From a virus: a stretch of 37,133 nucleotides of DNA. The position numbers and the translations under genes are program-made. Shown piece after piece: positions 1 through 17,482 of this stretch. A model generated the notes under the pieces. The model saw only the letters and a program-made list of their open reading frames with translations. It was not told the origin of the DNA and did no database searches. The stretch lies in the IMG/VR virus record IMGVR_UViG_3300020281_001017, positions 1 to 37,133 of that record. One strand, written 5' to 3'. The first letter of the stretch is position 1, and the number at the start of each line of letters is the position of its first letter.

Positions 1-560
1 AAGTCATTATTATTTCTGAAACGATAGTGTTTAAACTTTTGACATTTATTCCACTTACCATTACCTACTCTAGGTGAACCGAATGTATATAGAACGACAT
101 CAGGATTATTTAATCTACCTGCAACTAAAGTAGCAAGTGCGGCCCCTAGACTATGACCTGTTATGTATATTTGTTTTTTATCAGTTTCACACTCTTTCAT
201 ATACTTTACAACATCTTCCCAGACATCATTAAGAGCGTATTTGAAACCTCTATGTACTTTACCCTCTAACTTACCATCAATGCTTTTTGATTGCACTTTT
301 TTGATATCTAAATCTGCTTTGATATCTTGCCATTGTGTAGGTTCTGTACCTCTAAAGACTAATATAAAGTTATTGGCACCGTTTAGAGCGTATGCTTGTG
401 TACCACCAAAATCAAAAAACTTAACAGTCCAAGATTTAGTACCGATATGATCTTTGAATTTAGTTTGGTCTTGATAGCATTTCTCGGACAACTGTGCCAT
501 AAAAGCAGCAGTTGCCCAAGAATAGTTAGATGATAATTCTGTTAGTTTATTATCATCCAT
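1..560 (-). CDS. Class 3 lipase-like alpha/beta hydrolase (3'-truncated by window edge)
   Basis: The reading frame opens with ATG at 560 and runs off the left edge after 186 codons without a stop. The translation has the lipase class 3 (Lipase_3) layout: a FRGT oxyanion-region motif near residue 70, the nucleophile elbow GHSLGAAL at residues 135-142 (catalytic Ser137), and TFGSPRVGN at 159-167. It ends at ...RFRNNND, where the catalytic Asp of this family usually lies; the His would be beyond the edge. No signal peptide is seen, so the protein probably stays in the cell or virion. The predicted role is esterase or phospholipase, possibly acting on host membrane lipid at entry, in lysis or in lipid scavenging; the role is inferred. 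It sits directly downstream of a 53-aa membrane protein gene (4-bp gap). Confidence 0.85.
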   Translation of the reverse strand, partial: MDDNKLTELSSNYSWATAAFMAQLSEKCYQDQTKFKDHIGTKSWTVKFFDFGGTQAYALNGANNFILVFRGTEPTQWQDIKADLDIKKVQSKSIDGKLEGKVHRGFKYALNDVWEDVVKYMKECETDKKQIYITGHSLGAALATLVAGRLNNPDVVLYTFGSPRVGNGKWNKCQKFKHYRFRNNND

Positions 561-564
561 TTAA

Positions 565-726
565 TTATTCTCCTTTTACAAGAGTGAAGATACCATATGC
601 TAACCCAGCCCAAGCGGCCCACTTAGCGATACCTCCGAATAGAATTACGAAAATACAAATTGCGATTAGAGTAGCTCCGTCAAGTGAAGTCCTCTCAGTT
701 AATCGTCCTTTAATCCAATCTATCAT
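565..726 (-). CDS. Small single-pass membrane protein, 53 aa
   Basis: This short frame starts at ATG 726 and stops with TAA at 565. Its ATG overlaps the TGA of the upstream gene (ATGA, 723-726), a typical translational coupling. Residues about 18-48 are hydrophobic (GATLIAICIFVILF then GGIAKWAAWAGLAYGIF), consistent with one or two short membrane helices, after a polar N-terminus MIDWIKGRLTERTS. An internal GGAG-like purine stretch just before its stop (AAAGGAGAA) can serve as the ribosome binding site of the lipase gene 4 bp downstream. I do not recognise a family. Being co-expressed with a lipase, it could be a holin- or membrane-anchor-like partner, but that is speculation. Confidence 0.65.
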   Translation of the reverse strand: MIDWIKGRLTERTSLDGATLIAICIFVILFGGIAKWAAWAGLAYGIFTLVKGE

Positions 727-1520
727 TTTCTTCCTTTCCTCTTTGGTTTTTTAATATGCGACTTGGCAGTCGGCTTCTCATCAGGGTTGTCCGATTTTTG
801 TTGATGACTGGTCGTTGGTACATATGTGCCTAAACCATACTGACCAATACCCCTATATGAATACATTAATTCTTTTACTTTTTGAAACTTTGTTTTCTCT
901 GGTTTAATTTCTTCATAAGTTTTGAGTTCATTAATCTTGCTCAGTATCTTTCTACCTAGACCTGTTTTCATCCAATCTTTTTTCTTCGTTTTCTTTCTAA
1001 CAACTACCGTTGAACTATCATCACCTGTGCCTGGAACTGCTGTGCCTGTAGCATTTGCTGGGGCATCTTCATACTTAGCACTCTTTCTTTTAGTGCCATC
1101 TGCTCTAGGTATTAAACCTTTTGCCTTCAAGTGTGCCTTATCTGTAAATCCTGCCTTACCTGCTTTATATCTTTTCATAGCATCAGCAGTATTAGGTGCA
1201 GCTTCCTTTTGCATTTCTTTTGTTTTCTTTTTCATCTGTTCAATATATCTTCTATATACAGCAGCCTCTGCCATCTTACCCATTTCTTTTGCCCTTTGTT
1301 CCATAGCAACTGCGGCCTGTATTTTATGTGCGTGTGTTTTACCAGAGTTCTTTATTTTGTTTACACTCGCTCTTGCTGTTTTAACATCTTTAAATCCTAA
1401 ACCGTGTATTGTGCCTTTAGGATTTTCATCTGTATATAAGTCTGAATGTTTATCTGATTTAGCAGGTTGGCCTTTTTTTCTAGGTATGCGTGGCGCCTCC
1501 CATAATGCTCTAGTTTTCAC
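723..1520 (-). CDS. Conserved Lys-rich marine T4-like phage protein, 265 aa
   Basis: The start is GTG at 1520, chosen because a strong GGAGG lies about a dozen bases upstream and no nearby ATG exists. The N-terminal ~100 residues (beginning MKTRALWEAPRIPRKKG, with KHSDLYTDENPKGTI and a run of RAKEMGKMAEAAVYRRYI) form a block I associate from memory with conserved hypothetical proteins of marine T4-like phages. The rest is basic and low complexity, with a KKTKKKDWMKTGLGRKIL segment, and is probably disordered at the C-terminus. It is very basic, as expected of a DNA-associated or internal virion protein, but no catalytic motif is visible. It overlaps the upstream 195-aa gene by 11 bp and the downstream membrane protein by 4 bp. 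Confidence 0.75.
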   Translation of the reverse strand: MKTRALWEAPRIPRKKGQPAKSDKHSDLYTDENPKGTIHGLGFKDVKTARASVNKIKNSGKTHAHKIQAAVAMEQRAKEMGKMAEAAVYRRYIEQMKKKTKEMQKEAAPNTADAMKRYKAGKAGFTDKAHLKAKGLIPRADGTKRKSAKYEDAPANATGTAVPGTGDDSSTVVVRKKTKKKDWMKTGLGRKILSKINELKTYEEIKPEKTKFQKVKELMYSYRGIGQYGLGTYVPTTSHQQKSDNPDEKPTAKSHIKKPKRKGRK

Positions 1521-2097
1521 TTCTAATATCCTCCGATGTTATGTAGAGACTAGTACCATTTACCTCTACTGGATATACTTCATAACCTAAAATAGTATCG
1601 TGAACAGGAATGTCTTTTTTGAAGTTTACTTTTGTTCCTTCAGAGACAACAATATCGCCCTCAATATCGTATAGATCATTTCTAATAGTGTATGTACCTG
1701 CTGATATAGGTTCATTTATAACACTAGATTCAGATATTGTATCAAACTTATATCCTTCATTTTTTAAGTGTCTATAAATTTCTTTTTCATAGACATCTGA
1801 ATTATTATAAGTTTCTTTTAATAAAGCAACAGCAGCGGCAGCATAAGTTCCTAATCTACCACCTAGACCTACTTTCTTTAGTATTCTTTTAAAATTAAAT
1901 ACTAGTCTATGTAATAATGTATAGGATGTTTTCTCTCTACCTATTCTTAGACTTCTTGCTTTTCTTAGTACCTTACCATCTTTATCAATAATACCATATT
2001 TAAATGCGTCTTGTTTTTCAAAAGGCGTTGTAAGCAGTTTAAGAAAACGATAGGTAACAAATAAATCAATCGCTCTGTTTTCTTTTAGTTCTTGCAT
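1510..2097 (-). CDS. Conserved marine T4-like phage protein of unknown function, 195 aa
   Basis: ATG at 2097 overlaps the TAA of the preceding gene (TAATG). Residues 1-100 contain a helical, basic block (FVTYRFLKLLTTPFEKQDAF, then SYTLLHRLVFNFKRILKKVG and a GGRLGTYAAAAVALLKETY segment). Residues about 125-190 look like a beta-rich domain with SAGTYTIRNDLYDIEGDIVV and DTILGYEVYPVEVNGTSLYI. I recall similar sequences in cyanophage and pelagiphage genomes annotated as hypothetical or structural; no enzymatic motif is visible. Gene order among small virion-type genes suggests a structural or internal-head role, which is inference. Confidence 0.7.
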   Translation of the reverse strand: MQELKENRAIDLFVTYRFLKLLTTPFEKQDAFKYGIIDKDGKVLRKARSLRIGREKTSYTLLHRLVFNFKRILKKVGLGGRLGTYAAAAVALLKETYNNSDVYEKEIYRHLKNEGYKFDTISESSVINEPISAGTYTIRNDLYDIEGDIVVSEGTKVNFKKDIPVHDTILGYEVYPVEVNGTSLYITSEDIRSEN

Positions 2098-2462
2098 TAA
2101 ATATTCTCCAACTCTTTTAATAATAATTTATGCACTGGCAAATCTTGCATATCATTTTCAGGCATAAAATTTAAGAATACTAAAAATGTTTTTAACAATG
2201 GCCAGTATTCTCTTTCAACTTTAAAAAATAACATTGTTGTAGCAGCGTCAACACCAAACACATTAGTTAATATTATAATGTGATTAATAATTAATCTAGT
2301 TCTCAATTCACCTGTGGCAGTATATTTTCTAAATAATCGCTTTATATATTTAAAGCGTTTCATATCATCTAGAAACTCTGCCTGACCTACACACGATGGA
2401 TTATCATAGTGCTTGGCGGCGAATAGCATTATATTGCTACTTGTCAACTTCTTAAAATTCAT
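2097..2462 (-). CDS. Conserved small protein of marine T4-like phages (DUF7207-like?)
   Basis: The 121-aa protein has a helical block with AAKHYDNPSCVGQAEFLDD, KYIKRLFRKY, GELRTRLIINHIIILTNVFG and AATTMLFFKVEREYWPLLK. This is a pattern I associate with a short conserved family found beside structural genes in cyanophages and pelagiphages, possibly DUF7207; the name is from memory and uncertain. The hydrophobic 56-85 region looks like a packed helical core rather than a membrane span. It is coupled (TAATG) to the downstream 195-aa gene, so the two are probably made in fixed ratio. Confidence 0.7.
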   Translation of the reverse strand: MNFKKLTSSNIMLFAAKHYDNPSCVGQAEFLDDMKRFKYIKRLFRKYTATGELRTRLIINHIIILTNVFGVDAATTMLFFKVEREYWPLLKTFLVFLNFMPENDMQDLPVHKLLLKELENI

Positions 2463-2477
2463 AACGAAAGAGTATTA

Positions 2478-2870
2478 TTATTTTATACTAGCAGATACCT
2501 TATACATCCCACTAGGAATTTGCTCATATTTAATGGTCATATTAAACTTTTGTAGTTCACCTTCGGTAACATCTTCTGGTTTTTCAGCACCTGTTTTACC
2601 GTAGTGAGGAACTTGAGTTACCTCTATTGTGTGAGAACCACTTTGTCCTTCAGATGAAGGCACTTTAAAGTTTAAACCCATACTACCAAGTTTGTTATAA
2701 ACCTGATGAACACCAGCATCTGGATTCATAAATTCTCTTTCAGAGATTGAACCAAGATAAGCACTCAAAACTTGCATAGATTTTTCTGACCCATCAAAGA
2801 AATTAACATCATTCTTATCACCGTAGTGTTGTATGTTGCCTTCGTTAATGTGTTGTTTAAACGATTTCAT
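2478..2870 (-). CDS. Hypothetical protein with capsid-targeting-like N-terminus, 130 aa
   Basis: The N-terminus MKSFKQHINE-GN closely resembles the T4 internal-protein capsid-targeting peptide (MKTYQEFIAE-A), which is cleaved by the gp21 protease after [L/I]-x-E. Here I-N-E gives a predicted cleavage after residue 10. The remainder is a soluble alpha/beta protein with MQVLSAYLGSISEREFM and a C-terminal beta-rich part (SHTIEVTQVPHYGKTG, FNMTIKYEQIPSGMYKVSAS). I do not recognise the mature domain. Its start overlaps a 52-aa frame (2857-3015) by 14 bp. It is likely a packaged internal head protein; the targeting reading is inference from motif similarity. Confidence 0.7.
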   Translation of the reverse strand: MKSFKQHINEGNIQHYGDKNDVNFFDGSEKSMQVLSAYLGSISEREFMNPDAGVHQVYNKLGSMGLNFKVPSSEGQSGSHTIEVTQVPHYGKTGAEKPEDVTEGELQKFNMTIKYEQIPSGMYKVSASIK

Positions 2871-3015
2871 CTTTCTTATCCTCTTTTTTATATTTCTTTT
2901 CTTCTTTAGCCTTATTAGGATTTACCGTTAAGACCTCAGAAATTACCTCTTCTTTAGGTTCTGATTTTGCTTTATAAGGAACACCACCAGCACCCATTCT
3001 AACATTATCAGCCAT
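2857..3015 (-). CDS. Small charged protein, 52 aa
   Basis: The frame starts at ATG 3015 inside the TAATG overlap with the coiled-coil gene upstream, preceded by GGAGAAAACTA, and stops at TAA 2857, overlapping the next gene by 14 bp. The peptide begins MADNVRMGAGGVPYKAK and ends in a Lys/Glu-rich tail (KEEKKYKKEDKKDE). Tight coupling on both sides and a good ribosome binding site support a real gene although it is short. The Gly-rich start and charged tail suggest a small virion-associated or disordered protein; no family is recognised. Confidence 0.65.
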   Translation of the reverse strand: MADNVRMGAGGVPYKAKSEPKEEVISEVLTVNPNKAKEEKKYKKEDKKDEIV

Positions 3016-3236
3016 TAGTTTTCTCCTTCTTGAGCGACATCTTCTATTTTTTCATCATTGTAAGTTTGTTCGCTCTGTTCTTTTTCTAAATCAGCAAGAA
3101 ATAAGTTTACTTGTTGAAGGGCGCCTGATAATGCTTTTAGATTATCTTGTGCTTTAGTCAATGCTTCTTGACCTTTTTGTATACCCTCAGTAAGTTCTAA
3201 TTGTCTTGCTTCAAGTTTTTCTTTTGATATTGACAT
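3015..3236 (-). CDS. Small coiled-coil protein, 73 aa
   Basis: Residues 1-52 are a nearly continuous heptad-like helix (ISKEKLEARQLELTEGIQKG, then LKALSGALQQVNLFLADLEK), followed by an acidic tail. This length and composition are common for small accessory virion or chaperone proteins beside T4-like structural genes. It lies 21 bp downstream of the 147-aa structural gene and is coupled by TAATG to the 52-aa gene. No specific function can be assigned. Confidence 0.75.
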   Translation of the reverse strand: MSISKEKLEARQLELTEGIQKGQEALTKAQDNLKALSGALQQVNLFLADLEKEQSEQTYNDEKIEDVAQEGEN

Positions 3237-3257
3237 AATGTATTCCTTTCAATTCAA

Positions 3258-3701
3258 TTATGCGAGTGTACAACCATTATTACCTAGTACAACCCAAGCA
3301 GAGTTGACATACATAAGCATTACAGTATCGCCTACATCATTAAAGGTAATAGTTGTGTTTGATCCAGCGAAAGCAGCAGGTGTTAAGGTAACATCGCCAC
3401 CGTCTGTAATCATTGTAATAATTTTTATTTGCCCAACACTACCTGCAGCAAGAGTGACGGCATATGCGCCTGTACTTGCGAGTGTGGTTACTGCCGTTGT
3501 CAAGTTCACAGCACCTGTTGAAGTTAGTGCTTGTGGTGTACTATCAAATGCCAACCATGTTGGGAAATTGTTGAATAGACTTGCTATTGATATTTTTTTA
3601 TTAACGGGTGTGCCTGATGGATCATCTATCACATGGAGTAGATCCTCAGCAGCAATCCCAGTTCCTAAATCCGTTAGGGCGGTTATTTTTTTATCAGCCA
3701 T
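3258..3701 (-). CDS. Virion structural / fibre-type protein, 147 aa
   Basis: The N-terminus ([20 protein letters not shown] then [20 protein letters not shown]) is the typical start of phage tail-fibre or surface virion proteins, in which a short attachment segment precedes beta repeats. Residues 50-147 are Thr/Ala/Gly-rich beta structure ([40 protein letters not shown]) resembling a fibre shaft or head-decoration fold. ATG 3701 has a good AGGAG at -9. The gene follows a TATAAATA box (3795-3802) and a strong hairpin (3763-3790) in its leader. The exact virion location is unknown. Confidence 0.75.
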
Positions 3702-3762
3702 TATTTTCTCCTATAATTCCAAGTTAATGGTAAACTACTCTAGGCATACTACCTAGACCACC

Positions 3763-3790
3763 GTGAGGGAAGTAGCATCCCTTCCCTCAC
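3763..3790 (-). terminator. Perfect 10-bp hairpin between structural genes
   Basis: GTGAGGGAAG (3763-3772) and CTTCCCTCAC (3781-3790) form a perfect 10-bp stem with an 8-base loop. Reading leftwards there is no clean T-run after it. It lies just downstream of a TATAAATA box, so it may terminate the 195-aa structural gene, or form a 5' stabilising structure on the late transcript of the 147-aa gene. The sequence does not decide between these. Confidence 0.65.
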
Positions 3791-3794
3791 AATA

Positions 3795-3802
3795 TATTTA
3801 TA
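3795..3802 (-). promoter_or_regulatory. T4-type late promoter box TATAAATA
   Basis: The minus strand reads TATAAATA exactly, the consensus of T4 late promoters recognised by gp55 with the gp33/gp45 coactivator. It sits just past the stop of the 195-aa gene and about 94 bp upstream of the ATG of the 147-aa virion protein. A hairpin follows immediately in the predicted leader. AT-rich sequence makes chance matches possible, but the intergenic position supports it. Confidence 0.6.
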
Positions 3803-3804
3803 TA

Positions 3805-4392
3805 CTACGAACCAACTGTTATAGTTCCAGCAGCAGCACCGACAGCAGCAGATATTGCAACAGCTGAATCAGTTGTTGTACCTGCGTCTTTAATTGTACC
3901 GCCATTCTTATCGACATTTTGAGCACCAATTGATAACACATCAGTTGCATTAACAGCAGCATTTGAAGCCGTTCCTGAGAATGTTAGTGTATCACTAGTG
4001 ACCGGTAAAGTACCGTCCATTGTCAATGTTATGCTGGATGATCCTCCTGATCCTGTTTGGTCGTTTGACACAACCATTAGGGCAGGTTGACTTGAAACGG
4101 TGACCTGTTCGTTATAGTGTACTTCTACAACTATTGATGAACCGCCTGCACCTGATACAGTTTGTCCAACCGCAAAGTTTACAGCGTCAATAGTAGCATT
4201 ACCTAAACTTGTAGATAGGTCTCCGATTGCAACTAGAACTTCTGGTGTAGCACTTGTATTGTCATTTCCGCTATCAGCCGTACCTGCTTGTTTAACCCAA
4301 CCTGAAGAATTTGCAAAAACATTTTTCTTCTCGGCAGTAGTTAAATTCTTAGGTTTTGACTCATCGGAAGTACTTGCTCCCCATAATCCCAT
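3805..4392 (-). CDS. Virion structural protein with Ig/fibre-like beta repeats, 195 aa
   Basis: The N-terminal signature MGLWGASTSDESKPKNLTTA followed by NSSGWVKQAG is characteristic, as I recall it, of a virion structural protein family abundant in marine T4-like phages, ending in a GWV motif near residue 32. Residues 50-195 are Ser/Thr/Gly/Ala/Val-rich with alternating beta strands (VVVEVHYNEQ-type strands, SSSITLTMDGTLPVTSDTLT), consistent with a fibre or surface decoration. It lies about 46 bp downstream of an exact TATAAATA late promoter (4438-4445), in keeping with late, high-level expression. Confidence 0.75.
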   Translation of the reverse strand: MGLWGASTSDESKPKNLTTAEKKNVFANSSGWVKQAGTADSGNDNTSATPEVLVAIGDLSTSLGNATIDAVNFAVGQTVSGAGGSSIVVEVHYNEQVTVSSQPALMVVSNDQTGSGGSSSITLTMDGTLPVTSDTLTFSGTASNAAVNATDVLSIGAQNVDKNGGTIKDAGTTTDSAVAISAAVGAAAGTITVGS

Positions 4393-4437
4393 TTTAACTC
4401 TCCTTATTAATAAGTTTTTTAGTTATATAACTAGTAC

Positions 4438-4445
4438 TATTTATA
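4438..4445 (-). promoter_or_regulatory. T4-type late promoter box TATAAATA
   Basis: Exact TATAAATA on the minus strand in the 75-bp gap between the 735-aa gene and the 195-aa structural gene, 46 bp upstream of the latter's ATG. This spacing is typical for T4-like late promoters. This is the best-placed late box in the window. Confidence 0.7.
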
Positions 4446-4467
4446 AGATTTTTTGACTGTGTGGAAA

Positions 4468-6675
4468 TTAATTATTAGATGCGGCCTGAGCGTTTCCGCC
4501 TGCAGATGCCGATATGTCCATCTTTGGATCTATCTCAATCTTAGTCTTTCCAGTACCTACCTTTAATTTAGTAGTTTCTTTCTCTTTCATCTTGTATTTT
4601 TTGCCATCTCTCATATCTTTAATGATCTTTTGTGCTAGACCTACTTTGAGAGGAACTTCACCTGTATCTTTATTGGGTTCTACTGTTTTTTGAGATTTTT
4701 CTAAATTTTTAACTTTTAGTAATTGATTTTCTTTTTCTAGTTTCTCAATCTCTTGTTTTAGTTTTTCTTTATCATCTGTTTTTTTAGAGACTGTAGCAGA
4801 TGTAGTTTCTTTATCTGCACTTTCATTTTTTAGACCTTCTTTAAAATCTGTCCATTTCATACCTCTATTGATCACTAATTCAGATTTAGCAGTAGAGGTT
4901 ACAAATGGTATACTTGCCTGTGCCAGTTTATTTAACTGATCTTTTGTCATCTTCTTTATCATACCAGTCATTTTATTTAACTGTTCAGGAGACATTCTTC
5001 TACCTTTTAGAGGGGCATATTCTCTCTCTAATGTTTTGATTTGAGCAGCTGTAAATTCATTTAACTGTTCTTCACCATACATCTTTTTAAACTTCTTAGT
5101 AAATGTTGATGGTTTAGTTTTTGCTTCTTTATCACCTGGTGCAGCCTTATAGTCGTCATCATCATCTGACTTTTTATAACCAGGTCTATTCTTAAAGAAG
5201 TTTGCTCTTTTCTTTTTAGTATCTTTCTTTAGGTCTTTGTAATATTTTTTAGGTTGTGTACCTTTTACTTTCTTAACATCTTTATCTTGTGGTTGTGCGT
5301 CTAAATCTTCTAGTTTTGTAATTGAATCAACTTTACCACCATCTTTTTTTACTTTAGCAGCAAAATCATCTGCGTCTTGTTTAGTTGCGAAGTGATCTAT
5401 ATTTTTGATAGGTGTACCTTTCTTTTGAGAATGTACTGCATAGTCACCTTTTCTAGGAAATCTTTCTTCTAAGTTCTCTGCCTCTTCAGTAGGCACACAA
5501 TTAGGTACTTGTTTACCATTCTTAGTTTTCATACCTACTTGTTTGAAACCTTTCCAACACGCTTCAGGTAAATGCTCATCTTTAATATTAAACTTCTTTT
5601 TAAATCCATCATAACCACCAGCGGATTTTACCATCTTATTGAATACTGCTTGTGATTTAGGATTTATGAAGTTGCCATCTTTGTCAAATAGTTTTTTAAG
5701 ATGAGGTGGTAATGTATCTTTATTTTTTTCCCAGGAACTTTCTTCTAATTCTACTTCATCAGCAATTTGTTTTTCTAATTCTTTTGCTTGTTTAGCGTGT
5801 AATGCACTACCTTTTTTAAGACCTTTGATAACATCTTTAACTTGTTTCTCATCATCTTTTTCTAAATCTTCATTATATTTTGCCAATGCTTGTTTAACAA
5901 ATGACATATTAGATAGTCCCTTAGCAATTTTTTCTATCTCTGCCACAGCCTTTGTCATATTACCAGCAAACTTTTTAGCAATTTTTTGTGCTTTGTTCAC
6001 TTTATCCATTGATACAGTTAATTCATTTATATCTTCTTCTTCATCAATACCTAGTTTTTTCTTTACCATATTAGTTGCAGTACCAAATCTAACAGCGTCA
6101 CCCTTATCTTTACCATATCTATCTTTAAAACTTTTCTTTGGTAGATCATCTGCTACTTTGTGTACCATTTTAATTTGTTTTTTAGATAAATCTGCTTCTC
6201 CTAATACAGACTTAACTGCCTTTACATCTAACTTTAATGCCTTTGCAATTTCTTCAGCAGACTTACCATCTTTAGACATTCTGTCAATCTCAGACATTTT
6301 GCCTTCTTCTAATTCTTCTTTTTCAAATTCTTCACATAGACACTCTTCGCCGCCACATTTTTCACATACTGCAAATTCAAACTCTTCAGCCGCTCTAACT
6401 TTTTTAGCAAGGTCTTTATCTGCACCGCCCCAAGTTCCTGATGACTTGGTTACAAAACTGTTTACTCTTGCCAATGCCCATTGTACTTGAGTTGCCCCAG
6501 GTCTATGACCACCTTTCCATGCAGCCATACCTCTGTCATAAACTTTCTTTAGAATAGAGTAAGGCATACCAGTTTTCTTTGCCTTATTCTTAACTGCTGT
6601 GATTGTTTCGTCTATTTGATTTTGTCTGATCTCATCTAGAAGTTGACGAGTAGTTTTTGAATATTTACTTTTCAT
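4468..6675 (-). CDS. Lys/Glu-rich mosaic virion-type protein with DUF5824-like domain, 735 aa
   Basis: Residues ~25-95 match the DUF5824-type block seen in marine T4-like phages (KKTGMPYSILKKVYDRGMAA, GGHRPGATQVQWALARVNSF). A Cys cluster C-x2-C-x4-C-x-C follows at 104-114. After this come short modules that recur in other phage proteins: KMVHKVADDLPKKSFKDRYG near 180, CWKGFKQVGMKTKNGKQVPN near 370, and TFTKKFKKMYGEEQLNEF near 540. The C-terminal region has a strong coiled coil (KEKLKQEIEKLEKENQLLKV). The N-terminal RQLLDE and several internal [L/I]-x-E sites (INEL, LNEF, LPEA) resemble gp21 protease sites. It is probably an internal head or scaffold-like protein. ATG overlaps the preceding stop (TAATG). 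Confidence 0.75.
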   Translation of the reverse strand: MKSKYSKTTRQLLDEIRQNQIDETITAVKNKAKKTGMPYSILKKVYDRGMAAWKGGHRPGATQVQWALARVNSFVTKSSGTWGGADKDLAKKVRAAEEFEFAVCEKCGGEECLCEEFEKEELEEGKMSEIDRMSKDGKSAEEIAKALKLDVKAVKSVLGEADLSKKQIKMVHKVADDLPKKSFKDRYGKDKGDAVRFGTATNMVKKKLGIDEEEDINELTVSMDKVNKAQKIAKKFAGNMTKAVAEIEKIAKGLSNMSFVKQALAKYNEDLEKDDEKQVKDVIKGLKKGSALHAKQAKELEKQIADEVELEESSWEKNKDTLPPHLKKLFDKDGNFINPKSQAVFNKMVKSAGGYDGFKKKFNIKDEHLPEACWKGFKQVGMKTKNGKQVPNCVPTEEAENLEERFPRKGDYAVHSQKKGTPIKNIDHFATKQDADDFAAKVKKDGGKVDSITKLEDLDAQPQDKDVKKVKGTQPKKYYKDLKKDTKKKRANFFKNRPGYKKSDDDDDYKAAPGDKEAKTKPSTFTKKFKKMYGEEQLNEFTAAQIKTLEREYAPLKGRRMSPEQLNKMTGMIKKMTKDQLNKLAQASIPFVTSTAKSELVINRGMKWTDFKEGLKNESADKETTSATVSKKTDDKEKLKQEIEKLEKENQLLKVKNLEKSQKTVEPNKDTGEVPLKVGLAQKIIKDMRDGKKYKMKEKETTKLKVGTGKTKIEIDPKMDISASAGGNAQAASNN

Positions 6676-7004
6676 TAGTTATCTACCTTTGCTCCGTGAC
6701 GCCATTGAAAACAAGACCAGTAGCGTGCTTTTGTTTTAGGGCCTGGGTTATCGCAATTATGTCTTGCCCTAAATGATTTAATTCTTTCTGGACTATCCCT
6801 TTTAATCTCCATATTTGGGTCACCGAAAGTTACCTTTTTTATTTTATCTCCATCTTTTACAAAGACTTTAAACTTTTTTGGGCCGTCAGGTGTTCTCATT
6901 GGGTCATTTAATTTGACCTTTCTGCCTTGATATTCAGCCTCAGTTAATTCGTGAGGTAAAACTCCCCACTCATTTGCTTCTTTTATGTAGTCTCTAAATT
7001 TCAT
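6675..7004 (-). CDS. Conserved marine phage protein with capsid-targeting-like N-terminus, 109 aa
   Basis: I place the start at ATG 7004, two bases after the stop of the upstream gene, rather than at an in-frame GTG at 7022. This gives an N-terminus MKFRDYIKE-AN that matches the T4 capsid-targeting pattern, with cleavage predicted after I-K-E. The conserved body has YQGRKVKLNDPMRTPDG, FKVFVKDG, TFGDPNMEIKRDSPERIKSF and a terminal RHNCDNPGPKTKARYWSCFQ with two Cys. I recognise this as a family widespread in T4-like marine phages, always unassigned. The RARHNCDNPGP...YWSC pattern could form a small metal or disulfide site. The product is probably a packaged internal protein. Confidence 0.75.
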   Translation of the reverse strand: MKFRDYIKEANEWGVLPHELTEAEYQGRKVKLNDPMRTPDGPKKFKVFVKDGDKIKKVTFGDPNMEIKRDSPERIKSFRARHNCDNPGPKTKARYWSCFQWRHGAKVDN

Positions 7005-7006
7005 AT

Positions 7007-7645
7007 TTAATCCATTACACACCTAAAATTATTTATCTCTATATCAAGTTCTTCATAATCTATGTTATCAGGAACAATGAATAGGCATTGACGACCACAT
7101 TCTTCTTCCCTTTTAACAAACTTTTCTACAATATGATACACAGGATAATTTATATAATCATCAAATATTATTTTTGTTCCTGCGTCAGCATATTTAAGTG
7201 ATGAAAGAAAACAACAAACTCTAAATCTTCCATCAACTAATACTGTATCTGGTTTATCATCTTGCCAGATCCAATCAGTATATTCTACAAACTTATCTCT
7301 AAACTCATAACTTTCAGGTCTACCCCAACCAGTTATGGGTCCTACATTAACATAGTGAACACCATCATATTTTTCTGCAATTTCTTCTACCGTTTCTACT
7401 GACTTAACAATAGCGTTTGTATTTTCTAATACCCACTTTGTAGAATTACCACAACCATATTCACCATATATTTTTGTATTAGATAAAATCTCTTTAAATA
7501 ATCTATCATCACCATCGAATATGACACCTTTATCAATGTCTTTTCGCCAAGTGTTCATATAGTTTTTATCAAACAATATATGACCTGACGATAATTCAAC
7601 AGGTTGAGGTGCGTTTTCAATCGCCCTCTTAATATCAGATTTCAT
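7007..7645 (-). CDS. Class I SAM methyltransferase-like protein, 212 aa
   Basis: A Rossmann-type layout is visible. EYGCGNST at 62-69 corresponds to methyltransferase motif I, KSVETVEEIAEKY at 81-93 carries the acidic ribose-binding residue, and DTVLVDGRFRVCCFLSSLKY near 133-152 and IIFDDYINYPVYHIVEKFVK near 159-178 follow the VDGR...DDY arrangement of small bacterial proteins annotated as methyltransferase-like. The substrate is unknown. The start overlaps the stop of the 984-aa gene by 11 bp. There is no capsid-targeting peptide. It may modify a small molecule or protein; a nucleic-acid substrate is not indicated, because no DPPY or TRD is seen. Confidence 0.7.
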   Translation of the reverse strand: MKSDIKRAIENAPQPVELSSGHILFDKNYMNTWRKDIDKGVIFDGDDRLFKEILSNTKIYGEYGCGNSTKWVLENTNAIVKSVETVEEIAEKYDGVHYVNVGPITGWGRPESYEFRDKFVEYTDWIWQDDKPDTVLVDGRFRVCCFLSSLKYADAGTKIIFDDYINYPVYHIVEKFVKREEECGRQCLFIVPDNIDYEELDIEINNFRCVMD

Positions 7646-10589
7646 CTAACATTCTCGCAACAGACTTTTTAAGTTCTGATTTCCATGATCTTTTATATCG
7701 TTCCTTATATTTATCTATTGTAGACTCTTCATCTGCCCATTCTTTAATATCTTTTTTACTAATTTGATTAGTAATTTTCTTATAATTTTTAATACTTTGC
7801 CCAGGTGTTAATTCAAAGGCGTGTTTTGCATACTCTATTGTGCCTAACCCATAAGATTCAGGCAATATTTTTAGTGATTGTAATATATTTTGAAACTCCC
7901 TAGGACCTATTCCTATCTCTTGAGCGATGTCGGCTGCAAGTTTAAATTTATCTTTTGCAGCCGTCACCTTTTTCTTAAATATATTGATACCGTATCTCAC
8001 TTTAGCACGATCTACGGTCATACCTTTTAATATATCTAACAACTTGTTACCAGTAAAAAATTCTAGTTCAAGTTCTTCGATAAATTCATCAGCATTTTCA
8101 TATCTCTCCGTCTGCGTCTCCGATCTTTCTGCTTTCGTATCTTCATCCAACTCTCTAAGTAGTCTATCAAGTTCGTGTGATTCACCGTTGTGTACGGGTG
8201 CGAAATTTGATGATTGACTAATTTGTTCATTTGGTTGATCTGTTTGATTGTAAGCATTAGATTCCTCCTTAGTTGATTCTACGAGGTCATACAGCCAAGC
8301 TTTCTTAACTTCTTGTTCATCAGTTTCATAGACCACATAGTTTGGCCCACGCCTGATTACCATACCAGAAGTTCCGTTTTCTATGTTCTCGACCATATCA
8401 CCAATGTTAAAAATTTTATCTTTAATATAGTCCTCTCGTATATCATTATTAAGATAGTCAGCAAAAGATTCAATCCCTTCCCTAATACCCATACCTTTTC
8501 GCACAGAATTATAAAGGTCTTTTATATCTTTGTCAGACAGCAAACCTTTTACGCCTAATGTAAATGATTTTAGGTCATTATTTTTAGCAGCGTCTCTCAT
8601 TTTACTTGCACTCATACCTGTAGCACCTTCGGCATCAGGATCTCTATCGCCAGCAGATACTATCTTTACAGATTTAAAGTTATAATCTTTACCATTATAT
8701 TTGTCTGCAAGTTTTTGAAACTCATTTATTCTATCACTACCTGCGATCATAATAACATTACCATATAACTTATCATAAGTCTTTAATATTTCCATGAATG
8801 TTCTTTGATTACCACCAGCAGGTTTAATGTTCGAGCCTTTGAACATTTTTTTCATAAATTTAATTTTACTATTTTGATCTAATGGATTTTTTCTAGGATC
8901 GGAAGAGGCACTAGCAAAAACCTGGTGATTAGCCCGTTCTTTTCTAGCGACCTGTTTCACGGTGTTCATAAGTTTTGCGTGCCCTATGGTAGGAGGGTTG
9001 AACCTACCGAAGGCAAAAACGATTGTAGAGTCTCTATCTAACGCCTCTCCGACAGACATCAAACTATCTGCTTCTTTGTCAGATAATTTTCTGTCATCTC
9101 CTATTATTTCTTTAAGTTTGTTTATAAACTCAAAGTAATAATACTTCTCTAACATTTTATAGATTACATTGTTTGGTAATCTATTTCGTACACCATACTT
9201 TTTAATATCTTCTGGTGACATCTCGCCTTCAAACCCAGACTTTCTTTTATCTAGGGCATCATCTTTCATATCTATTAGTGTGTTAATATCATCTTCTAGT
9301 TCTTTAATCTTACCTTGAATTCTATCTCTAAGGTTTTCAATATCATCATCATCTAATTCAACTAGTTCTTTGTAGTCAACTAAATCTCTTTTAAATTCGC
9401 CTTTAGCAATATCTATTTTTTCTACTCTTGCTCTAAACTCTTTCATATAATCTTCTATATCAAATGGTTTAGATTGTGTTCTCTTTTCAAATCTATCGTG
9501 TACAATATCAAAGACATCATCGGCCATTTTATTTGCCTTATCATAAACCGATCTATCTACGATTACAAAGTAATTAACTGGGTGTACTGAACCTGGTACA
9601 TTTTTACCATTTACTTCTCTAACTATTCCTCTTAATTTTTCAGACATCGCTTCTTTATCTTCATCTGCAACATCAAATAAAACATTGATATCTAGGTCAG
9701 CGTCTTTTCTATATCTCTTTGTAAGAATGCTACCAATTAATCTATACTTAATTACAGGTGCAACCTTATTAAACTCTCGTATTTGATCTTCAATCATTTT
9801 CTTAACAACTGGTTTTAATACAGGTTTTTCCGTATCGTAATTATCAAATACAGTTTTTGAGTAATCTTTTCTAGGTAAGTCTATGATTGATTCTAATAAA
9901 TCTTGTTTAGATATTTCTAGGTAAGGTAAAACTTTTAATGCAAGTTCAACTCCTGCTTCGTGATCTGATTCGTAATGAAATCCAGCCTGTATTCTACCTC
10001 TACCAACTCGTTCAGCGATCTCTATAAATTGTTTTCTATGTGCTGGGTGTTTCATTGATAGGTACTCAGCAACTAATCTACTACCGCAACTATGTCCACT
10101 AGGATAAGCAGGTGTTTTCATTGTTGTACCATACATAGTGTCAAAGTCCATATTCAATGCTTTTGCAACTTGATATGGTCTAGGTCTATTGTATTTGTTT
10201 TTATGTGTTCTTGTTATCTTCCAGACATCATCTATGATAGCAGTAATCTCACTTGATCTGTAATCTAAATTATTTTCATTTAGATATTCTCTAAAGTGAA
10301 ATGATTCCATAAAGTCAGAAACATAAATTGAATTCTCATCATCTTTAGTTCTGGTTGTTTGCTCATCTATAATGTGTTGTAATTCTTCTTTGGTTTCTTG
10401 ACTATCATTTTCAGGCGGTGGAGTAAGTTCTATACTTTGCCAGCCATCTTTAAAATGTTTTTGATCATACTGCTCAACTTTATCCATTGACTCTTTAAGA
10501 GCATCCTCATTATAATAAACTAAGTCTTTTAAACTATAATCTACATCTTCAGATAATGTCTTTCTAAAATCAAAAAAACTTTTAGCCAC
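7635..10589 (-). CDS. Trifunctional PAP2 phosphatase / nucleotidyltransferase / NMNAT-like protein, 984 aa
   Basis: Three enzymatic domains are visible. A PAP2-type phosphatase has K130-x6-RP (137-138), PSGH (163-166) and R199-x5-H205-x3-D209. A pol-beta-type nucleotidyltransferase has GS at 286-287 and DLD at 298-300 (GSILTKRY, DADLDINVLF). A HIGH-superfamily cytidylyltransferase/NadM-like domain has GRFNPPTIGH at 528-537 and GMSASKMR at 658-665. The C-terminal ~270 residues have no recognised motif. The GTG start at 10589 overlaps the adenylate kinase stop; no ATG occurs for 34 codons. The N-terminus FFDFRKTLSE-D resembles a capsid-targeting peptide. Domains are clear from motifs; substrates are not. 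The NMNAT-like domain could make NAD or act on CTP, and the whole could process nucleic-acid ends. Confidence 0.8.
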   Translation of the reverse strand: MAKSFFDFRKTLSEDVDYSLKDLVYYNEDALKESMDKVEQYDQKHFKDGWQSIELTPPPENDSQETKEELQHIIDEQTTRTKDDENSIYVSDFMESFHFREYLNENNLDYRSSEITAIIDDVWKITRTHKNKYNRPRPYQVAKALNMDFDTMYGTTMKTPAYPSGHSCGSRLVAEYLSMKHPAHRKQFIEIAERVGRGRIQAGFHYESDHEAGVELALKVLPYLEISKQDLLESIIDLPRKDYSKTVFDNYDTEKPVLKPVVKKMIEDQIREFNKVAPVIKYRLIGSILTKRYRKDADLDINVLFDVADEDKEAMSEKLRGIVREVNGKNVPGSVHPVNYFVIVDRSVYDKANKMADDVFDIVHDRFEKRTQSKPFDIEDYMKEFRARVEKIDIAKGEFKRDLVDYKELVELDDDDIENLRDRIQGKIKELEDDINTLIDMKDDALDKRKSGFEGEMSPEDIKKYGVRNRLPNNVIYKMLEKYYYFEFINKLKEIIGDDRKLSDKEADSLMSVGEALDRDSTIVFAFGRFNPPTIGHAKLMNTVKQVARKERANHQVFASASSDPRKNPLDQNSKIKFMKKMFKGSNIKPAGGNQRTFMEILKTYDKLYGNVIMIAGSDRINEFQKLADKYNGKDYNFKSVKIVSAGDRDPDAEGATGMSASKMRDAAKNNDLKSFTLGVKGLLSDKDIKDLYNSVRKGMGIREGIESFADYLNNDIREDYIKDKIFNIGDMVENIENGTSGMVIRRGPNYVVYETDEQEVKKAWLYDLVESTKEESNAYNQTDQPNEQISQSSNFAPVHNGESHELDRLLRELDEDTKAERSETQTERYENADEFIEELELEFFTGNKLLDILKGMTVDRAKVRYGINIFKKKVTAAKDKFKLAADIAQEIGIGPREFQNILQSLKILPESYGLGTIEYAKHAFELTPGQSIKNYKKITNQISKKDIKEWADEESTIDKYKERYKRSWKSELKKSVARMLDEI

Positions 10590-11160
10590 GATCTTCTATT
10601 GCCCCTATTATTTGTGCTGAAATAGTTTCAGGATCTTTACCCTCTGCTCTAACTTCAATAAACTTATCTTTCTCTTGTCTAAATTTATCAAGAACAGGTC
10701 CTGTTTCTTTCTCATACACTTTCAATCTATTTTTTATAATCTCTGGTTTATCATCTTTTCTACCACGAGCAGTCAATCTTTTTATAACTTCTTTCTCAGA
10801 AACATTTAAATATACAACATATTTGTAGTCAATATTTTCTTGTTTCATTCTAGTTAATTGTTTCATATTTCTAGGAAACCCATCTAATATATATCCGTTA
10901 TCTGTATCATCTTTGCCTAGTCTATCTTTTAATGCCTTCATAACTTTTTCGATAGGCACTAGATCGCCTCTATCCATAATCTTTGCAACTTCAGGATCTT
11001 TTTTCTGTAAGTCTCTCATCATATCACCTGTATAGATATGTGGTATATCAAAATGGCCTGATATATATTTTGAATATGTTGATTTGCCTGAGCCAGGACC
11101 ACCTATCATCACGATAGTTACCATACTAAGTTCTTCCATAAACTGTTTTAGTGATTTCAT
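10582..11160 (-). CDS. adk: Adenylate kinase with capsid-targeting-like N-terminal extension, 192 aa
   Basis: The protein catalyses ATP + AMP to 2 ADP. The P-loop GGPGSGKST is at 20-28, followed by the NMP-binding helix HIYTGDMMRDL, DGFPRNMKQ for substrate binding, and RGRKDDKPEIIKNRLKVYEK as the short-LID arginine region, all typical of Adk. The ATG at 11160 forms ATGA with the upstream stop and adds MKSLKQFMEELS before the usual Adk start (M13). This extension resembles the T4 capsid-targeting peptide, with cleavage after M-E-E possible. It is unlikely to be only a leader, since coupling favours this start, but M13 (11124) is a fallback initiation site. It lies between ligase-like and phosphatase/nucleotidyltransferase genes whose reactions could produce AMP. 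Confidence 0.9.
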   Translation of the reverse strand: MKSLKQFMEELSMVTIVMIGGPGSGKSTYSKYISGHFDIPHIYTGDMMRDLQKKDPEVAKIMDRGDLVPIEKVMKALKDRLGKDDTDNGYILDGFPRNMKQLTRMKQENIDYKYVVYLNVSEKEVIKRLTARGRKDDKPEIIKNRLKVYEKETGPVLDKFRQEKDKFIEVRAEGKDPETISAQIIGAIEDRG

Positions 11161-12371
11161 CCTTTGACCCAATCTTTTGCTATGTTAAAGTTTGCTCTAC
11201 TAAACTCCATTCTATCTACAAGTTTTACAGCACCTGAAGATTTAATCGCAACATATCCCTCTGGACTGGTTACTCTAAATCCACTATCTGTTTTTAAGAA
11301 TGTGCCTATACTTTGTACACTTCTTAGTTTGTTTAGTAATAAGAGTTTAGCATTTTGTAATGACAAGTAAGTTGCAATACAGAAATATAATCCCTCAGAA
11401 TTGCCTTTTATAAATCTTACGCCTGCCTCTTGAATATCTTTATACTTTCTCTTTGTATTAGGTTGTTTTACCTTATCTATTTCTTGTTGTATTCTATCTC
11501 TATAAAATCCTACAAATTGACCTGTGAGTTTTTTTGTATTACCTAATGGTGTACCTGCTCTTATGAATGAGTTAAAGTATGCCTTTAATTGAACACCAAC
11601 AGACAATATATTTGTATCTCTTTTAAGTTTATCCATAAAGATAGATCCTTTACCTACTGAACCCATAGCCATTCTTAATATATTATCAAACTTTGCCTGT
11701 TCACTAGAACTAAACTTAGCACCAGTAGCGTCTTTGTAGGTTGCGTCATCAAAAAATACACTTCTTACTTTTCTAAGACCTCTAACATTTGCACCAAAAC
11801 TAGCACTCAATGTTGAGAATGATTTACCTCTATATGTTGTATGGAAAATAATGCCGATATTAGCATTTGCGATTCGACTTGCAAGGGGAGTTCCGACAGG
11901 TACTGCATATGTAATAGTATTAGGAGTGAATACAATATTTGATTCACCTTCAATCTTAGCAGTTTTTAATTCACCTTTTGTAAATAATAAGTCCCCTTGT
12001 AAGATACCTTTGATACCTAACTTTCGCAACTCCCTCAAGCAGATTTCTAATTTTTCAGCCACAGCACCAGTATGATTCTTTCTGATGTCTGAGGATGTGT
12101 AGTTAATTTTAGGAGTTTTATTGAATACAGACTTTGTACCAACAAAGAAACGACCGTTGTCAGGATTAGTACCACAGACTATTGCTGGTGCACCATCCCA
12201 TTTTACGGTCAAACTTGTTCTCTTACCACCACCAGAAAACATTTGTCTAATAGACTTCAAAAAATTTATGGCGTTTAACGCCCCACTACTTCCATTATTA
12301 ATTATATCATCTTCTAAGTGTTCTAGGTGGGTGTTCTTTGCCTCTACGAGGTACTGTAAAAACCCTTGCAT
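11157..12371 (-). CDS. KxDG ligase-like protein (DUF6267-type) with capsid-targeting-like N-terminus, 404 aa
   Basis: The sequence shows a covalent-nucleotidyltransferase (DNA/RNA ligase superfamily) signature. KWDG at 57-60 sits in TVKWDGAPAIVCG (motif I Lys). GILQGDLLFT at 122-131 resembles motif III. GIIFHTTYRGK near 173-183 resembles motif IIIa. EGYVAIKSSGAVKLVDR near 370-386 resembles motifs IV/V with two lysines. I recall it as DUF6267, unassigned in phages. The N-terminus MQGFLQYLVE-AKNTHLEHLE fits the [L/I]-x-E/A cleavage rule of T4 gp21. Two TATAAATA boxes lie 47-63 bp upstream. The likely chemistry is NTP-dependent nucleotidyl transfer, with RNA or DNA end-joining inferred. ATGA couples it to adk. 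Confidence 0.75.
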   Translation of the reverse strand: MQGFLQYLVEAKNTHLEHLEDDIINNGSSGALNAINFLKSIRQMFSGGGKRTSLTVKWDGAPAIVCGTNPDNGRFFVGTKSVFNKTPKINYTSSDIRKNHTGAVAEKLEICLRELRKLGIKGILQGDLLFTKGELKTAKIEGESNIVFTPNTITYAVPVGTPLASRIANANIGIIFHTTYRGKSFSTLSASFGANVRGLRKVRSVFFDDATYKDATGAKFSSSEQAKFDNILRMAMGSVGKGSIFMDKLKRDTNILSVGVQLKAYFNSFIRAGTPLGNTKKLTGQFVGFYRDRIQQEIDKVKQPNTKRKYKDIQEAGVRFIKGNSEGLYFCIATYLSLQNAKLLLLNKLRSVQSIGTFLKTDSGFRVTSPEGYVAIKSSGAVKLVDRMEFSRANFNIAKDWVKG

Positions 12372-12417
12372 TTATTCGCCTTCTCCATTTATATAATATA
12401 GAATTCACTTTCAATAC

Positions 12418-12434
12418 TATTTATATTATTTATA
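12418..12434 (-). promoter_or_regulatory. Tandem T4-type late promoter boxes
   Basis: Two exact TATAAATA octamers occur on the minus strand, at 12418-12425 and 12427-12434. The second overlaps the stop codon of the 363-aa gene. They are 47 and 56 bp upstream of the DUF6267-type ATG and could drive the whole 12371-to-4468 block, in line with late expression of packaged proteins. Confidence 0.6.
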
Positions 12435-13517
12435 GCCCCTATACAATAACTTTAATCCCATATAGGCGCCTAATTTTCCTTTTTGTTTTGCCTCTCTATA
12501 TTCACTATCACTTCTAATTGTCATTAATAAAGTTAGTTTATTTCTACCTGAGTGAACATCTATAAACCATTCTTGTACAGACGAGGGATTTAAATATGCC
12601 CTAACTTTATCTATCTTAGGAAATATTTTAGCAAGTTTATCGCCTTGTTCACTTGCACTATTACCTACGGCCTTAACTAATATCAAAGGCACATCCTCAC
12701 TACTGCCAGGTGTTTGTAATCTAAATTCTTCTTTTATCCATTGTTTGGTGGCCTTTAAATCTTTATTAATCATATTACACATATGTTCTCTACAAACTTT
12801 ATTTTGTATATTATAAAAGTCATCAAACTTTTTAGGATTTGATAAGAATAATTTTAGAACATTAGCCTGAACCTCAGGTCTAGGTTTTTGTGCCTTACCT
12901 GATATATCTAACCAGTTTTCTGAATTTAAACTTTTAGGCATACCTGGTATTTTAGAATAACATTTATTCCATAGTGCTCTTTTTAATTTTACCTCTGAGG
13001 TACGATCAGATTTAACCCACATATCTTTTTTGATTGTAGTTCTAACATAACTATTCATCTTAGGCTCTGCTGACTTAGCAGATCCTGCCTTTAAACTGAC
13101 ACCTAATATACCACCCTTTTTAAAAAAAACAAATATATCACCAGCATGGCTTTCAGGAACACCACTAGGTTTTGCTCTGTATCCCCAAACTACTTTTTGT
13201 ATAGGATTTCCTCTATTTAACTCATACAAATATTTTTGTATACCAACTGCATTACTTAATTTTTCTTGCAACATAGATGGTCTGATTTTTGCCGTATCTC
13301 TAACAAACTCATAACCTGAATCAATATCACCTTTATTAACAAAAGATTTACCACTTTTACTTGTATTTAATTGTTTCTTCTTTGCTAAGTCTAAAATGTA
13401 ATCATACATTTGATCTGCACTAGATAACTTGCGACCATTATTAAATGCTAGTGCTGGGAATAATTCTGTTATTGTAGAATTTATAGTAGTTTGATATCCG
13501 CCTGATAGGTATTTCAT
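12426..13517 (-). CDS. Putative PD-(D/E)XK-type nuclease, conserved marine phage protein, 363 aa
   Basis: The N-terminus MKYLSGGYQTTINSTITELF and the core VVWGYRAKPSGVPESHAGDI followed by FKKGGILGVSLKAGSAKS are, as far as I recall, conserved in cyanophage and pelagiphage proteins without an assigned function. The arrangement of E85, D127 (HAGDIFV) and S-L-K at 141-143 after a short strand and turn matches the D...xxK active site of PD-(D/E)XK nucleases. A Cys/His stretch VCREHMCNMI lies near 245. The C-terminus has RNKLTLLMTIRSDSEYREAK. The nuclease reading is inference. It could be a packaging or recombination nuclease, or be delivered against host DNA. No capsid-targeting peptide is seen. 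Confidence 0.65.
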   Translation of the reverse strand: MKYLSGGYQTTINSTITELFPALAFNNGRKLSSADQMYDYILDLAKKKQLNTSKSGKSFVNKGDIDSGYEFVRDTAKIRPSMLQEKLSNAVGIQKYLYELNRGNPIQKVVWGYRAKPSGVPESHAGDIFVFFKKGGILGVSLKAGSAKSAEPKMNSYVRTTIKKDMWVKSDRTSEVKLKRALWNKCYSKIPGMPKSLNSENWLDISGKAQKPRPEVQANVLKLFLSNPKKFDDFYNIQNKVCREHMCNMINKDLKATKQWIKEEFRLQTPGSSEDVPLILVKAVGNSASEQGDKLAKIFPKIDKVRAYLNPSSVQEWFIDVHSGRNKLTLLMTIRSDSEYREAKQKGKLGAYMGLKLLYRGYK

Positions 13518-13525
13518 ACCTATAT

Positions 13526-13774
13526 TTATGTTTGAATATTGCCTATTGTGAGAAACTTGACAACACCACCATTAGGTTCCCATTGTTTATGTTTATTTTG
13601 ATGATCAGTTATTGCGTCTGTATCTTCTTTAAAAAAGTTCTCACATAGAATAGAACCTGTAGGTTTCTCTACACATTGATATACTATCTGTTTACCTTTC
13701 TTGACCATAACAGTCTCATAAGATAACTTGACATCTTTTTTAGGTGGTCTTTTTTCTCGTTTTTTTCTAGGCAT
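13526..13774 (-). CDS. Small basic protein, 82 aa, possible Cys/His metal site
   Basis: I place the start at ATG 13774, with AAGGA five bases upstream, not at an in-frame ATG at 13795 that lacks a ribosome binding site. The N-terminus is strongly basic (MPRKKREKRPPKKDVK). The body has YQCVEKPTGSILCENFF and a later H-x3-H (DHQNKHKQWEP), which could bind zinc (C...C...H...H). It overlaps the 41-aa gene upstream by 8 bp and ends 8 bp before the 363-aa gene. The function is unknown; nucleic-acid binding is plausible from charge. Confidence 0.65.
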   Translation of the reverse strand: MPRKKREKRPPKKDVKLSYETVMVKKGKQIVYQCVEKPTGSILCENFFKEDTDAITDHQNKHKQWEPNGGVVKFLTIGNIQT

Positions 13775-13892
13775 TTTTTCCTTTATTGATTGCATTAACT
13801 AATTTTTGTCTATTCTTCTCGCCGAGTTCTCTTACTTTTTTATTCCACTCCTCGATTTCTTTATCTACTTTTTTCTTTTTTCTCTTTGTCAT
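13767..13892 (-). CDS. Very small basic helical protein, 41 aa
   Basis: The frame from ATG 13892 to TAG 13767 begins MTKRKKKKVDKEIEEWNKKV and is almost wholly charged and helical. Its ATG overlaps the TGA of the DoxX-like gene (ATGA, 13889-13892) and it overlaps the next ATG by 8 bp, so it fills what would otherwise be a 115-bp gap with coupled translation. The function is unknown. Such a peptide could be a small modulator or nucleic-acid binder. Confidence 0.55.
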   Translation of the reverse strand: MTKRKKKKVDKEIEEWNKKVRELGEKNRQKLVNAINKGKNA

Positions 13893-14302
13893 TTTACTCT
13901 ATTACCTCTCAATGCAAAAAATAAACCACCACAATAAAGTAGTAAATGAAAATGCTCATACATCAACACATACCATAAACTCTCTGGTTCTAATATTAAT
14001 ATAACACCTGTCATTATACCACAGATAACAATACCTGAAAATCTAGTAAGCATATCACCTACCCCAGGCCTAAGTGCAATCGTAAGACCGCCTACGAGTA
14101 ATCCTATACCCGCAAATAATTCACCCCAAGCAACAAAGAACCAGACTGTCATAGGTAGGCCAAATGCCTCTGCATCTGAAATATCAACAGGTAACTTTTG
14201 CAAACCTTGTAGTATGAAGATTATACCTAATGGTACTCTTAACAGCCAGTTTGCACCTTTGAAGTCTGGTATCTTTTTTAAATATTGCTCAAGTGTCATC
14301 AT
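13889..14302 (-). CDS. DoxX-like integral membrane protein, 137 aa
   Basis: Four hydrophobic segments are visible: ANWLLRVPLGIIFILQGLQK, TVWFFVAWGELFAGIGLLVG, FSGIVICGIMTGVILILEPE and WYVLMYEHFHLLLYCGGLFF. The first carries the R...G..F...G..K/L pattern of DoxX/DoxD-family membrane proteins, and E-H-F-H is in the last loop. DoxX proteins are associated with quinone or thiosulfate redox, or with oxidative-stress complexes. The gene overlaps by one base (TAATG) the upstream pseudoazurin-like gene, suggesting that a membrane redox partner and a periplasmic copper protein are made together. The exact donor and acceptor are not known. Confidence 0.8.
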   Translation of the reverse strand: MMTLEQYLKKIPDFKGANWLLRVPLGIIFILQGLQKLPVDISDAEAFGLPMTVWFFVAWGELFAGIGLLVGGLTIALRPGVGDMLTRFSGIVICGIMTGVILILEPESLWYVLMYEHFHLLLYCGGLFFALRGNRVK

Positions 14303-14721: not shown

Positions 14722-14730
14722 ATTTACTCC

Positions 14731-16128: not shown

Positions 16129-16420
16129 TCAACTCCTGATCCATTACGGTTATTAAGATATCTCCGATATGATTTATAAATTCTTGACTATCTGTATCGG
16201 CATCTATAAAATTTTTATCTACTGTATAATCGAACTTCATAGGTAAATTACCATTCTCATCTTCTTCTTTTGCGAATTGTACATTACCATAATGATATAT
16301 TATATCACAATAAGGGCCGCTGGTCAACTTAATTGAGGCATATTCCTTGTCAGGTCTTTCAACAAACACATAATCGACTTCGTGTTTAGGTAGACTCTGC
16401 TTCTTCTGCTTCGATACCAT
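16112..16420 (-). CDS. Conserved small protein between uvsX and helicase, 102 aa
   Basis: The ATG at 16420 lies inside uvsX (35-bp overlap). The protein has [52 protein letters not shown] and [20 protein letters not shown]. This looks like a small beta-rich fold with an acidic C-terminal helix. Similar short genes sit in this place in marine T4-like phages, as I recall, without a function. An alternative start at the GTG in the DYVFVE segment would shorten it and cannot be excluded. It is likely a replication or recombination accessory, by position only. Confidence 0.7.
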
Positions 16421-17426: not shown

Positions 17427-17448
17427 AGTTCTTCACTCCGATAATAAT

Positions 17449-17476: not shown

Positions 17477-17482
17477 GCATAA

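Follow-up and report, generated by a model that had tools for sequence, protein, structure and literature searches.

Five proteins encoded in the window, by which we mean the whole 37,133-bp stretch of DNA analyzed here, begin with a short peptide that is very probably a T4-type capsid-targeting sequence, marking cargo that would be packaged, cut and injected. This reading, put forward in the earlier note, was supported by four independent lines: coincidence of the tag with virion detection in cyanophage S-CREM2, identity of the tag's end with the gp23 maturation site, presence of the gp21 protease in relatives, and late promoters. The tag type is known from the T4 internal proteins; here it is found on enzymes and is widespread in marine T4-type phages.

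Results

The N-terminal tag in the window

The record represents part of the genome of a Kyanoviridae-like marine phage of the T4 type; its genes include those for DNA polymerase, UvsX, a gp41-type helicase and the clamp loader. Nearly all window genes lie on the minus strand. The DUF6267 protein was most similar (55%) to its homolog in Pelagibacter phage HTVC008M, which lies in a syntenic block, and Megablast of positions 1-20000 against isolates gave short matches only, near 12120-12206. A Lipase_3 family protein lies at the fragment edge (3-560). A plastocyanin/azurin-type copper protein adjoins a DoxX-like membrane protein (14302-14721 and 13889-14302), possibly as a phage electron-transfer pair.

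All N-termini quoted in the earlier note were present in the translations. For the tag we used a strict form modelled on T4 IPIII, [FYLIVM]xx[FYHW][ILMF]xE ending by residue 14, and five window proteins carried it as [FLV]xx[FYH][ILM]xE, all encoded on the minus strand. MKSFKQHINE (2841-2870) begins a 130-aa protein (2478-2870), MKFRDYIKE (6978-7004) a DUF5754-like protein (6675-7004, start at 7004), MKSLKQFMEE (11131-11160) an adenylate kinase (10582-11160), MQGFLQYLVE (12342-12371) the DUF6267 protein (11157-12371), and MKPVKFNEYITE (25677-25712) a RimK-RimB-like protein (24318-25712, start at 25712). The claim that at least five proteins share a T4-like tag thus held for 5 of 41 window genes, and the RimK-RimB tag, although it lies outside the interval 2478-12371 to which the claim had been tied, was the best-conserved case. 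When residues 2-30 of the 41 genes were shuffled in 5000 rounds, the strict motif was expected 0.158 times (shuffle mean) and no round gave five, a figure to be read with the strict expression having been settled after the N-termini had been seen.

The four anchors of the tag match residues 4, 7, 8 and 10 of T4 IPIII. In IPIII, residues 4 and 7 govern targeting, and residues 8 and 10 govern processing (PMC9026906). The equivalent anchors were present in the five window proteins and absent from the 984-aa protein (7635-10589, minus strand, GTG start at 10589), which the earlier note had also listed as tagged. Its tag-like start, MAKSFFDFRKTLSE (10548-10589), failed the strict motif because of its spacing, F-xxx-L-x-E. 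Its clade keeps the LxE, with the spacing longer by one residue (MAKNFFDFRKKLTE and similar), so we counted this protein as a partial case. The protein combines PAP2 with a nucleotidyltransferase-like part (SIIDLPR) and a cytidylyltransferase. In relatives, a tagged protein (MKFKDYITESIIDIPRR) begins with the second of these parts, an arrangement that suggests a fusion of two cargo proteins. Orthologs of its cytidylyltransferase domain are tagged and virion-detected in cyanophages. A 735-aa protein (4468-6675) appears to consist of small domains in series, between which several [IL]xE sites lie, and shares a short CWKGF-type segment with the virion-detected S-SZBM1_139.

Conservation of the tag among relatives

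Relatives were gathered using adenylate kinase, RimK and DUF6267 as queries. Alignment of N-termini across homologous phages, a check proposed in the earlier note, bore the tag out for RimK (43 of 44 distinct relatives) and adenylate kinase (40 of 55), and much less so for the DUF6267 family (17/73) and that of the protein at 6675-7004 (6/47); the 130-aa family had it in 7 of 17. The strict tag was found in none of the helicase, UvsX, DNA polymerase and clamp loader proteins of distinct relatives. Among 1819 unique N-termini of the related contigs, which had been chosen by their tagged proteins, there were 143 strict matches against 8.0 expected, and the excess was restricted to the tagged families, being about zero in replication genes. 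Two findings were counted against capsid targeting: the relatives L187 and L189 have an adenylate kinase without the tag that begins straight at the enzyme, and several DUF6267 clades are untagged.

In the 130-aa family the tag is kept (e.g. MKTFKQHIKE), the linker is hypervariable in length and sequence, and a core of about 90 aa is conserved. For the window member an alpha/beta core was predicted from about residue 21, with tag and linker at low confidence; a fold search for the family gave no significant match. The adenylate kinase has a complete fold by Pfam, AlphaFold and structure comparison. Its PF00406 domain starts at residue 18, 9 to 11 residues separate the tag E from the P-loop across relatives, and the predicted core matches solved adenylate kinases. 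The AlphaFold pLDDT was 47 for the tag block versus about 85-95 over most of the core. The anchor codons vary synonymously, which argues that selection acts on the protein; an mRNA-level explanation, with conserved start-region DNA, was rejected on this ground. The separable linker, the position of the domain start, the tag-less relatives and the synonymous codons together indicate that the tag behaves as a separate protein-level appendage.

The tag in IMG/VR and on unrelated proteins

IMG/VR was scanned with a 32-base DNA pattern corresponding to about M-K-[ST]-F-x-x-F-[IL]-x-E-A. At least 81 matches were obtained (80 loci kept), and 81 of the 81 matches listed marked the beginning of an open frame, the in-frame stop before each being no more than 27 codons away; all 75 complete ORFs among the matches listed were at least 60 aa long. 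ATAAATA was found within 150 bp upstream in 36/76 of the matches listed, against 7.25 in shuffles. The bodies of the listed proteins, several of them small, had nothing in common past the first 11 or so residues and represent dozens of families. The matches listed, combined with tagged proteins of the window, S-CREM2, T4 and other isolates, made a set of 110 proteins (a small number of them probably matching by chance), which fell into 46 groups after 14 residues had been trimmed. Among the groups were cytidylyltransferases, DUF6267, DUF5661, DUF6321, AAA/zeta-toxin-like kinases, an acetyltransferase-like protein and a transglycosylase-like protein. In 45 members chosen by the pattern, the only invariant residues were M1, K2, F4, F7, E10 and A11. 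PADLOC gave weak single matches only for 45 tagged proteins. One contig (L374) carries two consecutive tagged genes with unrelated bodies (3736-4152 and 4149-4532), a possible cargo cassette.

It is hardly credible that the similarity is due to chance or is a by-product of AT-rich start regions, in which the codons for MK, F, I and E are common. Loose versions of the motif are indeed frequent: one that allowed any hydrophobic residue at E-3 was dropped, UvsX N-termini matching it in 40/44 relatives. The strict motif, in contrast, exceeded all 5000 shuffles, the IMG/VR matches listed were N-terminal without exception, and four non-T4 phages gave zero strict matches.

Virion proteins of cyanophages

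The virion proteome of S-CREM2 determined by mass spectrometry comprises 52 proteins (PMC10665884). A matrix of the anchor positions was derived solely from the adenylate kinase, RimK and 130-aa tags of uncultured contigs, with S-CREM2 left out, and applied to the 219 S-CREM2 proteins. The five highest scores were those of gp154 (cytidylyltransferase), gp14 (kinase), gp136, gp6 (by Pfam an S-adenosylmethionine lyase) and gp13, with gp136 and gp13 being two unknowns. All five are non-structural and are virion-detected, while 0 of the 167 undetected proteins reached 7 bits (P = 4.4e-5, with anchor positions picked at the same stage as the strict expression). gp12 is virion-detected as well; it carries FASFMAEA some 19-26 residues past the annotated start and, although annotated as Cas9, gave no Pfam match. 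In the region 3837-13331 of the S-CREM2 record OR473000, gp6 and the nearby gp12-gp15 run are all virion-detected, and gp6, gp13 and gp14 are tagged. Two other scoring schemes were discarded: a broad first expression ([ILMV]xE within the first 20 residues) gave no clear separation (9/52 virion versus 19/167 non-virion), and a full-column matrix fitted the filler residues of pelagimyophages too closely (P = 0.013 at 8 bits). The S-CREM2 authors caution that abundant proteins might co-purify with virions (PMC10665884).

Virion studies report a cytidylyltransferase/NMNAT for S-SM1, S-SCSM1, S-SZBM1 and S-CREM2, and the protein is tagged in all four phages. A kinase has been reported in S-CRM01 virions, as cited in PMC10665884, and is apparently the tagged protein with MISFDQFLSEK. 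In S-SZBM1 and S-CREM2, the DUF6267 homologs are untagged and are absent from the virion lists of these phages. In S-SZBM1, one of four strict matches was in the virion list; taken by itself, this phage showed no clear association, which was counted against the capsid-targeting reading.

Cleavage site and protease

In a gp23 alignment, the T4 maturation site FLTE/A (cut at the slash) corresponded to FLGE/I, FLSE/A, FLAE/A, LLTE/A and LLQE/A in relatives, and the last four to five residues of the tag equal this site ([FL]LxE/A); the gene for this phage's own gp23 falls beyond the fragment. A Peptidase_S77 (gp21) search of the 37-kb fragment found none, which was counted against the reading. The refuting condition set in the earlier note, a genome that lacks a gp21-like protease, concerns a whole genome and so does not extend to a 37-kb piece. 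gp21 was present in 11/11 T4-type records tested and in 0/4 non-T4 podo- and siphophages of marine hosts, and lay on the same contig in 5/20 related or pattern-match fragments. Also counted against capsid targeting were HTVC008M, the closest isolate, which has gp21 and lacks the strict tag, and phiM12, which lacks the strict tag as well.

Late promoters

On its coding strand the window has six copies of the T4 late promoter element, TATAAATA. This total is not above chance, but five of the six copies lie in the 6.4% of the DNA that is non-coding, against 0.45 expected. Tandem elements (12418-12434, minus strand) stand about 47 bp before the DUF6267 start, upstream of the unit of DUF6267, adenylate kinase and 984-aa protein genes. 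Single minus-strand elements lie at 4438-4445, upstream of 3805-4392, and at 3795-3802, upstream of 3258-3701. The protein at 3805-4392 has homologs in HTVC008M (gp135) and S-SM1, and its sequence is similar to the beginning of S-SZBM1 virion protein 136. Among distinct relatives, an element was found within 120 bp upstream of DUF6267 in 79/103 cases and upstream of the helicase, DNA polymerase and RimK genes in 0/79, 0/56 and 0/50, respectively. In S-CREM2, gp6, gp15 (the first gene of the gp15-14-13-12 run) and gp154 each have a T4-type late promoter 20-22 bp upstream, and gp136 is preceded by ATAAATA at a distance of 19 bp. Late expression is more in keeping with head cargo than with replication enzymes; RimK, without a late promoter, is an exception and was counted against.

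The placement of RimK among replication genes would also suit a peptide that forms a helix for docking on some other complex of phage or host (replisome, ribosome or membrane), with the proteins acting unpackaged in the producing cell. A short N-terminal helix is predicted on adenylate kinase, and for adenylate kinase and NMNAT a metabolic role during replication is plausible. However, a docking helix needs neither the motif-final E nor the following A, which match gp23 maturation sites, and it does not account for the coincidence with virion detection in S-CREM2 or for the late promoter that heads the tagged operon. We consider docking quite unlikely.

Discussion

Capsid targeting, the preferred reading, would proceed as follows. 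The tagged proteins would be made late in infection, and the hydrophobic or aromatic residues at E-6 and E-3, judging from T4 IPIII genetics, would dock the cargo on the prohead core. A gp21-type prohead protease would then cleave behind [ILM]-x-E, with A as a frequent next residue, and the mature proteins so released would remain in the head and pass into the next host cell along with the DNA. There the cargo could act at once on host metabolism, ribosomes or defense: adenylate kinase on nucleotide balance, RimK-RimB on glutamylation or processing of ribosomal proteins. Further cargo would include the DUF6267 protein and others, and in relatives SAM lyase, kinase and cytidylyltransferase. The data suggest that phages of this kind bring ready-made enzymes into the host alongside their DNA.

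The tagged proteins might instead be packaged and stay in the head, in the core or in condensation, or be degraded there, without being injected as effectors. T4 heads also contain scaffold and core proteins cut by gp21 (PMC9026906), and the small size of several cargo proteins agrees with such a role. Filler, however, needs no catalytic activity, whereas adenylate kinase, RimK and the S-CREM2 SAM lyase belong to complete catalytic families that have been kept, and T4 proteins with the leader are packaged and injected (PMC12373910). Permanent residence in the head is therefore unlikely, and we favor injected cargo. Since T4 Ip1-3 inhibit GmrSD nucleases (PMC12373910), an anti-restriction role of the S-CREM2 SAM lyase after injection would fit. 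Adenylate kinase and NMNAT could replenish the nucleotides or NAD that defense systems attack, and RimK-RimB could modify the ribosome immediately.

More broadly, T4-type phages of the ocean probably have a general head-loading code, in which one exchangeable N-terminal tag is placed on dozens of unrelated effector enzymes, and injected cargo can be read from the genome. The cargo would include modifiers of nucleotides, NAD and ribosomes, kinases, SAM lyase, and acetyltransferase-like and zeta-toxin-like proteins. The literature covered, which leaves subscription journals mostly outside, contained no report of such a signal in cyanophages or pelagiphages, nor of adenylate kinase or RimK as virion cargo. 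Injected effectors of marine phages have been almost unknown so far because their discovery needs virion proteomics on hard-to-grow hosts; with a readable tag the question becomes a sequence search. The tag would also explain the recurring NMNAT/cytidylyltransferase of cyanophage virions and separate packaged cargo from ordinary metabolic genes. It predicts that adenylate kinase and RimK of pelagimyophages act before any phage gene expression, and it offers a candidate peptide with which to load selected proteins into the heads of marine phages.

Comparison with known systems

The tag of T4 IPI, IPII and IPIII (MKTYQEFIAE) is, like the one described here, N-terminal, about 10 residues long and common to otherwise unrelated proteins. 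Both have a hydrophobic or aromatic residue at E-6 and E-3, [IL] at E-2, E at position 0 and often A next, and both occur in phages with gp21, here found in relatives. They differ in that E-3 may here be Y or H, that cleavage of the window proteins is predicted from the motif, and that enzymes (adenylate kinase, RimK-RimB) and other families make up the cargo in place of small GmrSD inhibitors. In the T4 proteome the strict motif was found in ipII, ipIII and 61.1 only. The last gene (NC_000866, 18966-19130) adjoins adfA (61.2) and encodes a hypothetical 54-aa protein, gp61.1, that starts MKTFKEFIKED and is a candidate unrecognised internal protein.

The T4 Alt ADP-ribosyltransferase is a head-packaged, injected enzyme that is cut by gp21. 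Compared as a cargo type, Alt resembles the proteins described here in being enzyme cargo of a T4-type head, although the enzymes are unrelated. The virion NMNAT/cytidylyltransferase, SAM hydrolase and kinases of S-CREM2, S-SZBM1, S-SCSM1, S-SM1 and S-CRM01 come from the same phage family, the Kyanoviridae. Those checked by sequence carry the tag, as the window proteins do, and the cytidylyltransferase is an ortholog of the domain in the 984-aa protein; the accessible parts of these papers name no targeting signal. The polyvalent proteins of phages and conjugative elements are multi-domain and are presumed to be delivered together with DNA, which is also conceivable for the 984-aa and 735-aa proteins, but they are defined by domain architecture (PMC5512222), whereas the proteins described here are defined by a short N-terminal tag.
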